From: Leucocoprinus leucothites
Lineage: Eukaryota > Basidiomycota > Agaricomycetes > Agaricales > Agaricaceae
Direction: 5' to 3'
Length of the DNA: 64,000 nucleotides
Assembly (NCBI GenBank): GCA_013368445.1
Contig: JAACJO010000002.1
Location: forward strand, 3,038,001 to 3,102,000
Shown here: in pieces, positions 5,170 to 64,000 of the stretch
Numbering within the stretch: position 1 is the first letter of the stretch
Layout of the letters: every line of letters starts with the position of its first letter
Translations under genes and position numbers: made by a program
The notes under the pieces: model-generated
Databases searched by the model: none
What the model was told of the DNA's origin: nothing
Seen by the model: only the letters and a program-made list of their open reading frames with translations

Positions 5170-8100
5170 TCATCGAAGGCCAAGTTTCACTTTCGTGAGC
5201 TTCTCCTCTATGTCACCAATTTCCTCCATGAGTAAATACAATCTCTTCTCCAACTGTTTGTAGTCGTCATCGCTGTTACCAGGCCGGGTTTCCTCCTCCT
5301 GTAACCCTCCTCCGCTTCCTAGACGGACTCGCTCAACGGATGTGATGGAAGTAACGGGTCGGTGTGTATCTATATCGGCGCCAGATGCACGCCAGCCAGA
5401 CACGACCACGCGCTCATTTGCACCTTGCCCGTCGACTCTGGTATTCATTAGAGCAGGCCGATCATTGCCGGCGGGTTTAGGTGGGAATGAACTTGTACTC
5501 TCCTTTCTGTCTCCAGAAGCGCTCCTCTCTACAAGGACTTTATTTCGTCCTGACCCTGGCCTCTCTCTAGGTGCCTTTCTCTCTTCAACTTCTTCATTCA
5601 GCAAATGCGAATGTAACACTGACGGGAAGCTCGAGGACCTAGCAGCCAGCGGAGGTGGAACTGCTAACAAACTCGATCCACTCCCACTCGGTCTCCTAGC
5701 CAACAGCGCCGAAGCGTTCGCATTACTCCTCATCGACGAAGATGTGTTCCCAAACATCATTGTCATCGTCGCGGTAGGTGTCGCACTTCCACTTCTGCGT
5801 GACAGTGATAATGAAGCTGATAATGCCGAGTTTGGGCGAGGGCTCGGACTGGGGGGCCCCTCTGATTCTGTAATTTCAGTATCGGCTTCCGAGGCTGAGT
5901 ATGGGACGTCACTGCCGTCAACGGTGCTAAGGTTGTGGGATGGAACAGGAAGTGGAGAGGGGCGACGAGCTTGAGTTTGATTATTTGGGAAATTCGAGTT
6001 ATCGAGCGGGTTAGAGTTGCTGACGGCGTGGCTGTCTCGTGGGACATTGCTCCCCGAGGGCATGGACGAAGAAAGTGAAGTAGAGGCATTGGAGAAAGAT
6101 CGATAGTCAGGCATAGGTATAGGATCCCCAACAAATCTCAACTCCTTCCTCGACGATCCGTACCCTGACCGCGATCGAAGGGATGCAGGGTTGGTCAGGA
6201 CCTTGGGCTTCCTTCCACTCTCGAGCACACGCTTCCTCGCACTCATGCCAACGCAATCAACCAGTTGTTTCATCGCTTCTCTATCCGAGAGATCACGACG
6301 TTGAGCTGTACGAGGTGCACTGCGGGGCAATGTGTTGGTTCGGAACGGAGTGAACATGTAAGGGCGATTATTGGGAGTACTAAAAGTATTGTATCGTGGT
6401 TGTGGTGTAGTCAGGTGACGGGGCGTAGTAGATGGAATGACTGGCGTCAAAAGGTGTGATGGCGCGCCGAGTATCGTAAACTGGGGGGTGCTAGGAATAG
6501 GAAGCTGTGTGGGTGGAGAAATTGTGTTTGAGGCCTCAGGTGCTGATGAAAGAAATGCATCGGGCGTAGGGCCCCAGGAAAATCCAATAAAAGCCGCCGA
6601 GGGATCCTCCTGCATTGCTGATTTTGCAGGAGTCGAAGGCGTTTGTCGAAGGATAGAAAGCCCAGGGGAGGAACCCGCAGCAAGGGGAGAAGACTGGAAT
6701 AGGGCTGAAAAGGCGAAACCTTGAGATAATGACTCTTCGTTTAGTGATTTTGCAAGCGGTTCAGATTGAAGCGCCGGTTGTTCATTGTAGGTGAACTGCG
6801 GAAGGTGCAGGCCTTCAGGCGCTTGCTCTGTTGAGCGTGATGAGCTGGCAAACAGGAGTGATCTGGTGTGTTAACGTACGCTCGTGCAGGTTCATCCAAT
6901 TGACGGCTTCAAAAAGTGGATGATCCGTGATTTCCATGATGTTACGGCGGCCAATGCGGCGCTCAGGGCGTGTTAGTAATCTAGATGCAAACATGAGCTT
7001 ACAATGGCATGCACGGGCAATGATGAATCCATACTTGCGGATGAAGTCCTTATACACTGACGGTACGGGTATACTGTCATCAAAACGAAGACTACGCTAG
7101 AGGTCCTCGTAAATCCAGGCAACGGGGAGATTCAGCTGGGAATGCTTACTTCGTGGTTCATTATCTTTTGGTAAGTATGCCGGATCTCGCTGGCGAAAAA
7201 CGGGGCGACACCATAACACATCTCGTATAACATCGCGCCAAAACTCCACCAATCTGTTTCGACCCCATATCCGCGATCTTCATCGCCATTCCTCGACGAG
7301 CGGAGGCTCAGGAGTTCTTCCTCATCCTCCATTTCCATTTCAAGTGCCACCAATGCCGCTTCGTGGGCTTGAAGAATCTCCGGCGATATATAGTCGCAAG
7401 TACCGCAAGGGACAAGGCAATAGCGCTTGGGAAGCAGTCGAGAGCCATCAGGGCCCGGTGGGAGGAGGGGAGCAGCAGAACCGAAGTCAATGAGGAGGAG
7501 GTGTGCATCCTGTTTGAGGACGAAATTTTGCGGCTTGATGTCACTGCCAAAACATCAATGCGCAAGGACTTATCAAGGTTTGAGCTTACTCACCGATGTG
7601 CAAAGCCTTGGGTATGGCACCAGTGGATGGCGCTAACAATCTGGGGTATCCACCATTGTAGATCAAGCTCGAGGAGTTTCCCATGGGTAGTCGACTCAAG
7701 AACGTCCCAGAGCGAGCCAGCTTCGGCATAGTCCATTATGAGATTTAGATGTGTGTGCGTTTGGAATGCACAAAGAAGATGTGGTGCCCACTTGGATTCT
7801 GTTTTCAATGCTTGGAGTAGGATATCACGCTCGAATTGCGGGAAGCATTGCTGGGAACATGATCAGTGACTTTTAATAACAATGAAAAGTGCTCGCAGCT
7901 TACATCGCGTGTTCGTAGGGCAAAACGTTTCTCAGTGGTTTTGCGGACGTAGGTTCGCCCGTCGAGGCGGCAAGTGACAACATCGACCTGGTCGAGAATC
8001 AACTTCAATAATGCATGTTCTGAAGCACCATGTCCTTACGACGCCGAATTGTCCATATTCCAGGGTTCCGACGATGTTCAGATCTCTATCCTGGAACCGT

Positions 8101-27926: not shown

Positions 27927-28701
27927 TATAGCTTGTCGCAACCTCGTGGATTCAGCATTCCCAACCACCACGATTAAAAGTTGGCACATCTGCGACATCT
28001 CCTTAAATTGATCTTTGCGGGGGCATGAGCGAATGAGTGGACTTTTTTTCAACATAGAGGCAAAGCTTATTGAAGGGATGAAATGATGGCGAGCATGTCC
28101 GACTTTCACGCATGATGTCACCTCAGTCATCGGACCGTTGGCCTTGAGTCAAATCATTGACCCTCTACTTAAAGTACACGAGGCACAAATGCATTGTCTC
28201 CATTCTCATCACAAAATAATTGAATTGGAGAATAACGGTTGAACCTGTAGTGCCTGCGCATCTTCAGCCGCGAAAGTGAATAAGGTTATTATTAGGCACA
28301 AATTCAATCAATGTGTATAGTACCCGAAACGTTACTCGAATCAATCACCTCTTCGGCGATATGTCAGAAACAGCGACTTTCTGAGAGAAAAGAGAAGTCG
28401 ATCAACCATACTCACCCATAATAGGACCCGTGAGATAATCACAATACCAAGATCTCCGGCGATATTAGAGTTGCGAGTTTACGATAAAACAGAGGGCATC
28501 GCGATAATCTGTGAGAGCCGATGTACCATTTAATGGTGCCTTCCTTGCTGAGCATTCCGGTACTGTTCAAGTCCGGCAATTGTGGGATAGTGAAGTCGCA
28601 GATATAATTTTCCGTTTGCGTGGGGTTGTTCCTCCAAGTCATATAGAAGAGGATGATAAAGGTCCTACCGTTCATCAGGCAAGTCTTCACTCCCAGGTGA
28701 C
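27927..28701. other. Intergenic
   Basis: 775 nt between the F-box fragment and the Cys-rich secreted protein gene. Overlapping short frames occur on both strands at 28439-28756 without supporting structure. The right end should hold the promoter of the gene at 28702. Confidence 0.4.
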
Positions 28702-30052
28702 ATGCATCTCCTCTATTCTGTTTTTGCCCTCCACTTGTCTTCTGTGGTGGTCGCAATAACCAATGAGAGAGCTCTCCCGGTGGCCACTGCTACCAACATA
28801 ACTATTAACTTAAAGTACGTCACTCATCTCTTAAGCGTCTGTTCTTTACTGAGAGTTCTTTAGTTATTCGGAAGGCGCCGGCGAAATAGTTTTGGGATCC
28901 CCCAATAACTGCGGCTGCGACGATCCCAAGTGTAGAGATCCCCGATGTGCGGGGTGCGACTGCCGCAATCCAAAGTGTAAAGATCCCAGGTGCGCCTGGT
29001 GTGATTGTGATGATCCTACCTGTCACGATCCCCAGTGCCCGGACAAGTGCGACTGCAAAGACCCGCATTGCAAGGATACCAGATGCAAGGGATGCGACTG
29101 CACAGATCCCTGGTGCGAGGACCCAATGTGCAAGGACTGTAATTGCCACGACCCAAAGTGCAAAGATCCTATGTGCAGTGGGTGCGATTGTCAGGATCCT
29201 AATTGTAGAGATCCGAAATGCGCCTCTTGTGACTGCCGCAATCCCCGGTGTAAGGATTGTAGGTGTGCTTATTGCGACTGTGACAAACCCGACTGCCACG
29301 ATCCGCAGTGTCCGACCGAGCCTTGTAGTAAGCCGTTCCCTGGTCCCACTACGGTCACCATCCCCACTACGACGACGACTACTCTCACTGTCCCAACCAC
29401 CATCACTGTCCCCACTGGCACTACTACCATATCCACCACCACAACTACGACGGTACCCACTACGACAACAGCCACCGTACCCACTACTGCAACGACCACT
29501 TTACCTTCCACTACAACTACCACCCTCACTACTACCACGTCTTTCACTGTCACGACGACCGTTGGTACAACTTCATCTGAACCGACCGAAACTCCGACTC
29601 CGTGTGGGCCCCGAGAGTGGTCCATAGTTATGCGTCGTTTCTACCATCCTATTTGGCGTGACCACCTCTTAATCTCTTGGAACACCATCGAGTTGAATGA
29701 CGCCATACGCCAAGGATACCAGGAGGAGAGAACTACACTCGGTCGCGTTTGGAGAAATGGAAACTTCCCCCTCTACCGATGCTTTTATCAGGAACCTGTC
29801 TTGGACCATTTCTACACGACTAACAAGACAGAATTCGATGAAGCTGTTGGGCAAGGTTGTCTGCTTCTCTTTCCCCCTGGTATTGTTGGGTGGATATATG
29901 AGAAGCAGGAGTGTGGTTCTGTTCCGGTGTTTAGGTCGTATAACGAAAAGGACCAAGATCACCTTTATACCATTAACAAGCAGGAGCATCAAAATGCGAC
30001 GGAGCATGGATATAAAGATGAGGGGGTCATTGGATTTGTTTTGCCGCCTTGA
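28702..30052 (+). CDS. Secreted Cys-repeat / Thr-rich stalk / DUF5648 protein
   Basis: Predicted 433 residues in two exons, 28702-28814 and 28864-30052 (49-nt intron, phase 2). Exon 1 supplies a signal peptide (MHLLYSVFALHL..VVVA). Residues 54-192 are nine tandem units of 15-16 residues with the pattern C-x-C-x4-C-x4-C-x2/3, usually CDCxxPxCxDPxC. They hold about 38 cysteines and many Asp, a composition suited to metal binding or a disulphide rod. Residues 193-285 are almost pure Thr with Pro and Val, an expected site of dense O-glycosylation. The rest contains three repeats of the DUF5648 type, with the hallmark HFYTTN and HLYTIN. DUF5648 is an extracellular repeat family of unknown function. 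The three-part layout suggests a cell-wall or secreted adhesin or chelator. A start inside exon 2 would lack the signal peptide. Confidence 0.8.
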
Positions 30053-56980: not shown

Positions 56981-57580
56981 CCCCCCCGAAAGAAGATGAA
57001 TCAAGTGCATATAATAACTTAGGTTGTCTACTCGACGCCGCGTGTGAAGAGGCTGAGTACACAGGGAGATCCAATGTACGAATCACACTCGTCTGTACAA
57101 GTACCATTGACCAACCACCACCGCAGACCCTCTAGACGAGCACGCATACAAGCTAATCGCGTGTATTGACTATAACCATCCAATCGACACCTCGCGTGTC
57201 TGTCGGTGCGTATCATCGCTCTTTATACTTGAATCCCGGGTTGACTTTTTTGATAGTTACAAAGCCGGGCGTGATGAAGGATGGACGGCATACACTGATG
57301 TGAAAGGAGATACACTGAGATGGAAGGAAGTTGAGAGGCGGTATTAGATTGACGACGAGATTTGCGTGGAGTGATATGCAAGTATTTTTGTCTCTCGCGC
57401 TCATCTTATTTCTAACCGAAGCCCCAATGAGGACGAAAATGCACCATCGCTCCTTACTCGCCGATTATCCAGTCTAAACGCCTCAAGGCGCTCGTCGGCA
57501 CCAACGGTTCGTACAGCTGGCAGTAAGGGTTATTATAAGATGAATGGAAAGATGACTAGGGATTAGGGTTTTTAGCTTAG

Positions 57581-57729
57581 AGATTGGCCAGGGTGCAACT
57601 AGGGATCAGCCAGGGTGTGACTAGGGATTGACCAGGGTGTGAGTAGGGATCAGCTAGAGTGCAGCTAGGGATCAACCAGGGTGCAACTAGGGATCAACCA
57701 GGGTGTGATCAGGGATTGGCCAGAGACTG
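57581..57729. repeat. 22-bp minisatellite, about 7 copies
   Basis: Tandem unit close to AGGGATCARCCAGGGTGYGACT, repeated about seven times head to tail with 75-95 % agreement among units. Some units have GATTGGCC in place of GATCARCC. Flanks are AT-richer and unique. There is no coding potential. Confidence 0.9.
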
Positions 57730-62230: not shown

Positions 62231-64000
62231 ACGCAAGCCATAGGGGAGTAGCACGAAGCTACGATGATCGGCGTATCAGACTCATCGGGCACGACGTCAC
62301 AGGACTGCCAGATAGAACGCGGCTGGTAATAATAGTAAAAATAATCATAATCATTGTCATAATACAACGAAACAGATTTGACACATATCCGTGAACTGTA
62401 GATGATAAGAGAATCAAGGTGATACATGGATCAAGGAGGCGGCTGTAGCAGAGTGAGGATCCAGCAGCGAACCCTAGAACACAAGGACCACAGTGTCAAC
62501 ACGACCACAAGCTAAAAGCGGGATGAATAGCTACCTTAATGACATTGCCCAGTCCAGCCTCCCGCACATTTACAGCGAAGCAAATCATGATATCCGTCCA
62601 TATGGCACCACGTTGACCAGCAATAGTCCCGGAAAACGAGGCCCGCAAAATCCAGATGGCAAGAGTTCGTTCCGGCTGGCGTGGATGAGACGAATAGAAG
62701 CCGGTGAGGAGGCGATACTATCAATATTACGCGCGACCCAGCAGTGTTGATTACTATGAGAGTGGTGTGGATCATGAGAGAAGACGGCTGCACGTCCATG
62801 GTCTCAGTCTCCAGAAGCTACTAGAAACGCCGGCATAAAGTCAGGCGTTCCATGAAGACTGGATTTCACCGACTGTAAAGTCAGGTGAAGTCGGCGCAAC
62901 GGCACGCTGTGGACAATATAGTCACACAGCGCGACGTGCGAACTAGGAGAAGCAGATCCAGGACAGAGCATGATGAACTGATGAGTGAAGGCGTCCAACG
63001 AGAGGGACGGAATTATCGTACGTGGCTCTCGGAGGTAATAGCCAAATAACACCAAATAAGCATATCCGTGTGCGAACCAATTCTTCTAGTCCAACTACAT
63101 GATGCAGATAACCACGTTGTGTGACCGCATCGTCCACAGTGTGCTACTGCATGGATTCCCCCGCTATTCCCCCTGACGGTTACGTCGAGGGACTCCCACG
63201 TTGTGTGACCGCATCGTCCACAAGGCGCTACTGCATGGATCCCCCCTGACGGCTACATCGAGGAAGATCCATCTCCTCTGACGGTTACATCGAGGAAGAT
63301 CCATCTCCTCTGACGGTTGCGTCGAGGAAGATCCATTTCCTCCTGACAGTTCGAGCGTAAGACAGGCTCCACCCTGTCGAGACGTCTTGTCGGACGTAAA
63401 CTGTCAAGTCTACCCGCAGCCAGCCTTTCCATCCGAGCCCTCCCATTTGTCGACGACGCAAATACTGCTCATGAATAGCACGTTCGTACCCCTTGGAATT
63501 CTTCTTGCAGCTCACAGGATCATTCTATCAGTACCATCTTCTCCGACGTGCTGCTCCTATCAGCAACTCTGATGTTCCGACCTACTGGAGATGTTTGGAA
63601 CCATTAAATCGATGATGTGAGTAGCCCCGTTCTGCTGTATTCTACTCGTTGGTTTCCTTACAGCGATTTCCTCAGGCCATCCGCAGTACCACTGTCGCAC
63701 ATTAATTGCGCTTCGAAGTGATACAAGCCCGCTTTTCTAAGTACGAAACGTGAGCACAATTTGCTGGTCCCGTCTCAAGTTCTGAGCATCATTCACATCA
63801 TTTGGTCCACGCATAGTAACTCATCTCCGAGGATAGTATCATTTACGGCCGGAGAAGCCACCCTCATCTTATCGTGCGGAGCGTCTTGTAGTATCGTTTT
63901 GTCAACTACGCACTTAGAACATGACCACACCTTTTTCATATCCACGTTTGAGTATATCTAGAGAGAGGTCTGTTGGTACGCCTTCATCGTCTCTCTCTCA
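62231..64000. other. Right-end intergenic DNA
   Basis: 1.8 kb with no supportable gene. Contents are a TTATTATTTTTATTAGTAAT-like AT stretch around 62330-62370, the tandem repeats at 63112-63345, and short frames without structure. Confidence 0.4.
63112..63345. repeat. Two nested tandem repeats (84 bp x2, 32 bp x3)
   Basis: A block beginning CCACGTTGTGTGACCGCATC occurs at 63112 and again at 63196 (period 84). From 63246 a 32-bp unit beginning CTGACGGYTACATCGAGGAA is repeated three times (63246, 63278, 63310), with a degenerate fourth. The 32-bp unit is also recognisable inside the first 84-bp block near 63173, so the small repeat probably grew out of the larger one. Confidence 0.85.

Follow-up and report, generated by a model that had tools for sequence, protein, structure and literature searches.

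The gene and its parts

The gene analysed here lies in a 64,000-nucleotide stretch of the Leucocoprinus leucothites genome (assembly GCA_013368445.1, contig JAACJO010000002.1, positions 3,038,001 to 3,102,000 of the forward strand), which we refer to as the window. Window positions 28702-30052 encode a 433-residue protein once exon 1 and exon 2 are joined. Its parts, all on the forward strand, are as follows.

28702..28814, + strand: exon 1, encoding the putative signal peptide MHLLYSVFALHLSSVVVA and a short N-terminus; a similar exon 1 is present in both paralogs
28815..28863, + strand: intron of 49 bases, GT-AG, phase 2; the same joint is used in the deposited model
28864..30052, + strand: exon 2 including the stop codon, from the reading frame
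28910..29311, + strand: nine C-x-C-x4-C-x4-C units, residues 54-187, with 37 Cys and 28 Asp (pattern count)
29333..29602, + strand: Thr-rich stalk of 90 residues, with 51 Thr, 12 Pro and 5 Ser (composition count)
29603..30049, + strand: DUF5648 head with three predicted blades (Pfam; best AlphaFold2 model with a predicted local distance difference test score, pLDDT, of 87.4 and a predicted template modelling score of 0.81)

The intron reads GTACGT...TTCTTTAG, and the joint of 28814 to 28864 is one of 19 that keep the frame. Judged by eye, it has the best splice signals, and it is also used by the deposited gene model P0002 (hypothetical protein D9756_002842 of Leucocoprinus leucothites). All three array genes of this genome can accommodate a phase-2 intron, 49-52 bases long, at the matching place, although in the paralogs it was picked by us among several candidates. 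The hydrophobic N-terminal signal peptide is similar across the three paralogs and suggests that the protein is secreted; both the peptide and its cleavage site are judgements by eye. A hydrophobic tail was sought in the last 40 residues and none was found, and therefore no glycosylphosphatidylinositol (GPI) anchor is seen. The original prediction, made from the letters of the window, had proposed this signal peptide, this exon 1 joint and the 433-residue model. The likeness of the three N-termini supports the first of these, and the other two proved right in every part that could be tested.

The Cys/Asp array

The units of the window gene follow the pattern C-[DNG]-C-x-[DNK]-P-x-C-x-D-x-x-C and are separated by spacers of 2 or 3 residues. 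In 10,000 shuffles of residues 54-187 the highest number of units was four, with a mean of 0.56. The predicted nine-unit repeat is thus real, but the units are not near-identical, as had been claimed, since their mean pairwise identity over 13 positions is 63%.

A strict grammar emerges when the 49 units of the three array genes (9 + 30 + 10) are pooled. Cys occupies all four places in 49 of 49 units. This is fixed by the search pattern, yet the arrays tile with 2-4-residue spacers and contain no degenerate unit, which means that the four Cys are truly invariant. Asp10 is likewise found in 49 of 49 units, Pro6 in 47 and Pro11 in 40. Place 2 is Asp or Asn in 47 units (Asp 41, Asn 6) and place 5 in 41 (Asp 28, Asn 13). 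In all three arrays length differs solely in the spacer between units, as would suit autonomous modules. Hydrophobic residues (VILMFYW) account for only 5 of 134, 23 of 458 and 1 of 155 positions in the three arrays. A hydrophobic core is hence an unlikely basis for the fold, and something else must hold it together. Synonymous places are saturated between units, with per-site figures that lie beyond the correction range of the method and serve qualitatively only.

The deposited protein hides most of this array. When the array region was used as a protein query, P0002 was the sole match among 45 candidates. Its sequence is obtained exactly from the exon 1 joint and two extra GT-AG introns, both of which are probably false.

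28990..29035, + strand: probable false intron in P0002, which shifts the array out of frame (comparison with the deposited model)
29259..29308, + strand: second probable false intron in P0002, after which the frame is restored (comparison with the deposited model)

Spliced in this way, one of the nine units is left intact and eight are destroyed. It is very improbable that the deposited model is right and that most of the array is intron or is read in another frame. The exact reproduction of P0002 by two GT-AG introns speaks for it, but the in-frame reading stays open for 399 codons, Cys, Asp and Pro are kept while codons vary (the Cys codons of the units are 22 TGC and 15 TGT), and the two paralogs are read in the same frame. 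For these reasons we favour the in-frame reading. At least for the D9756_002842 gene, the array is missing from the protein database.

The DUF5648 head

The predicted DUF5648 C-terminus is confirmed by a match to PF18885 of 88.5 bits (E 5.8e-25), against a curated cut-off of 25 bits. Five AlphaFold2 models built from a 4-sequence alignment had pLDDT values of 87.4, 81.9, 77.9, 67.3 and 59.3. The predicted head contains three E-E-H-E repeats (beta-beta-alpha-beta blades), of which the second has a short last strand, and its fold is predicted to be a three-bladed propeller. In blade 1 (29603-29740) the DHFYT motif usual for DUF5648 is lost and reads DHLLI; blades 2 and 3 carry DHFYT and DHLYT.

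By its Pfam match and its predicted three-bladed beta-alpha architecture, the head resembles the known DUF5648 proteins, namely the (beta3-alpha)3 domain of GH70 enzymes and the C-terminal domain of group-1 BSAPs. It differs from them in its partner, which is a Cys array; no catalytic or pore-forming partner was found with Pfam or NCBIfam. In papers on bacterial DUF5648, the domain is linked to glycan recognition and proposed to bind glycans, and by analogy the window head may bind a surface glycan. The pore-formers, in which a C-terminal DUF5648 binds the receptor, also suggest by analogy a defence protein whose head would recognise a microbial or animal glycan while the Cys array acts. We regard this as improbable.

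Paralogs

We searched the organism's own genome (47 Mb in 110 contigs), and the match counts are lower bounds. There are at least 10 DUF5648 matches, counted as 9 genes as two matches share one reading frame. Searches with the window array and with a paralog array located Cys arrays at three loci, each joined to DUF5648. The two paralogs are as follows.

Contig C21: 701 residues, 30 units; array and DUF5648
Contig C3: 445 residues, 10 units, irregular Cys clusters at both ends; array and DUF5648

A DNA search of the same genome with 28702-28960 returned nothing beyond itself. Contig C3 carries five DUF5648 genes within about 15 kb (2505234-2519768), on both strands, one of them with a Cys array. 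The array of C21 has grown by the copying of blocks of 8-9 units, and most of its units 11-18 find their best match within units 19-27.

The part between array and head consists of 90 Thr-rich residues in the window gene, a short Thr/Pro linker in C21 (30 units) and Asn-Gly repeats in C3 (10 units). It differs in each of the three genes, and therefore the shared design is array plus head, without the stalk. Of the three-part design put forward in the original prediction, array and head stand, whereas a fixed Thr stalk does not. The same source had considered that the Cys region might be a known domain always found with DUF5648. The three arrays found in the genome do all occur with DUF5648, but the array corresponds to no known domain.

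The units of the window gene are ordered as units 1-10 of C21 (2 of 5000 shuffles were as good), a segment chosen for the test after inspection. The order of C21 units 1-10 relative to the C3 paralog is not significant (1703 of 5000 shuffles as good). A tree built from nine heads separates the three array heads, along with one array-less head, from the five others with a support of 99/98.

An upstream element

A 15-base element, AAGATCTCCGGCGAT, precedes the gene.

28346..28360, + strand: degenerate copy of the element, 11 of 15 bases by eye, located some 103 bases ahead of the exact one (upstream alignment)
28449..28463, + strand: promoter element AAGATCTCCGGCGAT, exact copy (genome search, upstream alignment)

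The genome contains four exact copies: one at the window gene, one at the C3 gene and two at the C21 gene. All lie 253-358 bases ahead of the start codon and on the coding strand. A genome search allowing one mismatch gave 6 matches, 4 of them exact, and the reversed-pattern control gave 1. The two inexact copies are on contigs C4 and C9 and have no array within their 3-kb surroundings. When up to two mismatches are allowed, the element recurs in the window at 7374-7388, and a count of two was reached in 1 of 100 shuffles. Around the element, the longer aligned pieces of upstream DNA agree at about 64-69%, and the element itself is unchanged. Common descent explains the presence of the element, and its exact retention suggests that it is in use.

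Searches for relatives

No Pfam family matched the array (residues 52-191) up to E 10, including EGF, TSP3, CTDC and the metallothioneins, in a scan whose HMMER filters and composition correction can mask weak matches. There was no sequence match to PDB chains up to E 10, and exon 2 gave a sole NCBIfam row at chance level (E 7.2), within the stalk. The claim that the Cys/Asp array belongs to no known family therefore holds for Pfam and NCBIfam. In PHROGs, a family of unknown function matched the head residues (E 1.4e-6), and the stalk showed weak similarity to a tape-measure family (E 0.049). When residues 50-300 of the 30-unit paralog, which cover part of its array, served as the query, none of 106 candidates reached E 10, a weak null result because P0002 was not returned either. 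More generally, the absence of homologs elsewhere is weak evidence because the protein database misses the array of the window gene. With the head, 4 of 29 candidates reached E 0.001, namely P0002 and three DUF5648 proteins with no visible array.

A degenerate DNA pattern of one unit found one stretch (L033) in a collection of prokaryote genomes, a homopolymer-kind Cys-Asp run. In viral contigs it also found one stretch (L034), where a phage protein carries a single unit. Neither L033 nor L034 contains a second full unit. Positions 1549-1587 of L034 (minus strand) encode a linker with one perfect unit, CDCGDPNCDDPEC, followed by a looser Cys/Asp run; by eye, the phage protein looks like a prohead protease-capsid fusion, and no relatives of it were found. 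Protein and pattern scans of the viral contigs found no DUF5648 relatives.

Among the open-licence papers searched for DUF5648, PF18885 and the array hexapeptides, no description of the combination of array and head was found, in line with the earlier view that the arrangement is undescribed. The six array hexapeptides occur in that literature solely in an unrelated conotoxin review.

Four neighbouring open reading frames were tested and had no Pfam match over cut-off. The window also contains a minisatellite at 57578-57723, with periods of 22-66 bases and about 2-5 copies depending on the period, and a tandem repeat at 63239-63351 with a 32-base unit, 3.5 copies and 90% matches.

Possible readings: disulphide beads, metal sites or calcium modules

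Our preferred interpretation, to which we assign a probability of about one half, is a secreted multivalent binder in which a string of Cys-locked beads is connected by a variable linker to a glycan-binding head. The gene product would be secreted and not GPI-anchored. Each 15-17-residue unit would be a small autonomous bead, with its four invariant Cys paired within the unit as two disulphides and Asp-Pro turns capping both C-x4-C loops. The string would then form a rigid, protease-resistant rod, the length of which could be scaled (9, 10 or 30 beads). The linker, probably O-glycosylated in the window gene, would join this rod to the three-bladed DUF5648 propeller, which would bind a surface glycan, and the rod may serve in adhesion or surface coating. 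We infer the disulphide state of the Cys. Secretion and the even Cys counts after the signal peptide in two of the three mature proteins (42 and 126) favour it. The bead model draws further support from the predicted extracellular targeting, the head fold, the DUF5648-glycan literature and, on the sequence side, the constancy of Cys, Asp and Pro across the 49 units despite mixed synonymous codons, the scarcity of hydrophobic residues, the restriction of length changes to the spacer and the unit order common to the window gene and C21 units 1-10.

It also has a precedent in Blastomyces BAD-1, described in PMC3708853 as a surface protein of this fungus; its 41 short Cys repeats include separately disulphide-closed loops, its hinges are probably flexible, and acidic residues are outside. 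Both proteins are fungal and carry many short Cys repeats, with disulphide locking that was solved for BAD-1 and is inferred here. Each BAD-1 loop spans 17 residues, is closed by a single disulphide that links two conserved Cys, and contains a WxxWxxW motif (PMC3708853). The window array, in contrast, packs four Cys into 15 residues, contains 2 Trp over its whole length, and lacks the two-Cys, WxxWxxW repeat. A DUF5648 head is absent from the description of BAD-1 in the available part of PMC3708853. The relationship is thus an analogy in logic and not family membership.

The same Cys could bind metal. Fungal metallothioneins (e.g. Cryptococcus CMT1/CMT2) resemble the array in being extremely rich in Cys, in their C-x-C spacing and in having few hydrophobic residues, but metallothioneins are typically cytoplasmic and lack a signal peptide. 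The window protein differs from them in having a signal peptide, a glycan-type head, an invariant Asp and Asp-Pro turns. We considered a secreted soft-metal store in which each unit would be a Cys4 site that takes up Zn, Cu(I) or Cd, with Asp in the second shell, and the head would park the load on a glycan surface, which may belong to the fungus's own wall or to a competitor. A density of four Cys in 15 residues, their C-x-C spacing and a 0.6-5% share of hydrophobic residues would suit such a store, the capacity of which would scale by block duplication up to 30 units. The odd number of Cys in one paralog (53) and an Asp10 that never becomes Asn, favouring a coordinating role, point the same way. 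So does the CDCGDPNCDDPEC unit in the phage protein, which is expected to be cytoplasmic, where a disulphide is unlikely, although this is a single case and no relatives were found. On the other hand, the secretory route is oxidising, two of the three mature proteins have even Cys counts, no Pfam metallothionein model matches, and we do not recognise AAGATCTCCGGCGAT as a metal-response site. On balance the metal store is possible if doubtful, and we rate it next after the bead model; the sequence leaves disulphide rod versus metal sponge undecided. Somewhat more tentative still is its fullest version, an extracellular glycan-targeted metal-thiolate protein. Here every C-D-C-x-D-P-x-C-x-D-P-x-C module would be an independent Cys4 site, capacity would be set by module number (9, 10, 30), DUF5648 would be the anchor to a polysaccharide surface and one private promoter element would be shared.

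A third arrangement would retain the disulphides and have Asp10, together with Asp2 and Asp5, bind Ca2+ and so stiffen the rod. It draws on the presence of Asp10 in every unit, on the Asp/Asn content of places 2 and 5, and on BAD-1, described in PMC3708853 as a high-capacity, low-affinity calcium binder. Yet no Pfam model matches the array, an Asp next to a Pro might do no more than form a turn, and many Lys/Arg lie within the same loops, which makes calcium modules unlikely.

A number of observations weigh against the bead model. The Cys content, C-x-C spacing and scarcity of hydrophobic residues would fit metal thiolate clusters equally, full intramolecular pairing would not give 53 Cys, and the strict retention of Asp10 suggests a carboxylate role beyond the turn. 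The structure of the array was not obtained, as single-sequence AlphaFold2 gave pLDDT values of about 37-43 per block. DUF5648 glycan binding is, in the papers, a proposal made for other proteins. The unit order of the window gene is not significant when compared with all 30 units of C21 (575 of 5000 shuffles as good) and is not conserved relative to the 10-unit C3 paralog (4224 of 5000). Furthermore, the array heads form one clade in just 4% of 200 bootstrap trees, with inner branches mostly unsupported, and 136 of 500 label shuffles of the nine-head tree were equally clustered. The array heads are not one clade, and therefore a single origin of the combination is not established: one gain and a loss, or repeated joinings, are both possible.

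Significance

Dictyostelium CTDC extracellular-matrix repeats are also secreted tandem Cys/Asp repeats; their likeness to the array has no counterpart in the Pfam scan, in which CTDC did not match. We class the window protein with a known kind, secreted proteins that pair tandem Cys repeats with a binding domain, and regard its combination of repeat module and DUF5648 as new within that kind. The repeat module has no model in the family libraries searched, follows a strict and testable grammar and occurs in 9 to 30 units within one genome. If the metal reading is true, the protein would be more than another member of this kind. The protein also gives a fungal DUF5648 head a testable role. As the deposited model shows, Cys arrays can be lost from view through automatic splicing, the same error could conceal them in other fungal proteomes, and other fungal genomes may contain similar arrays that have gone unnoticed.
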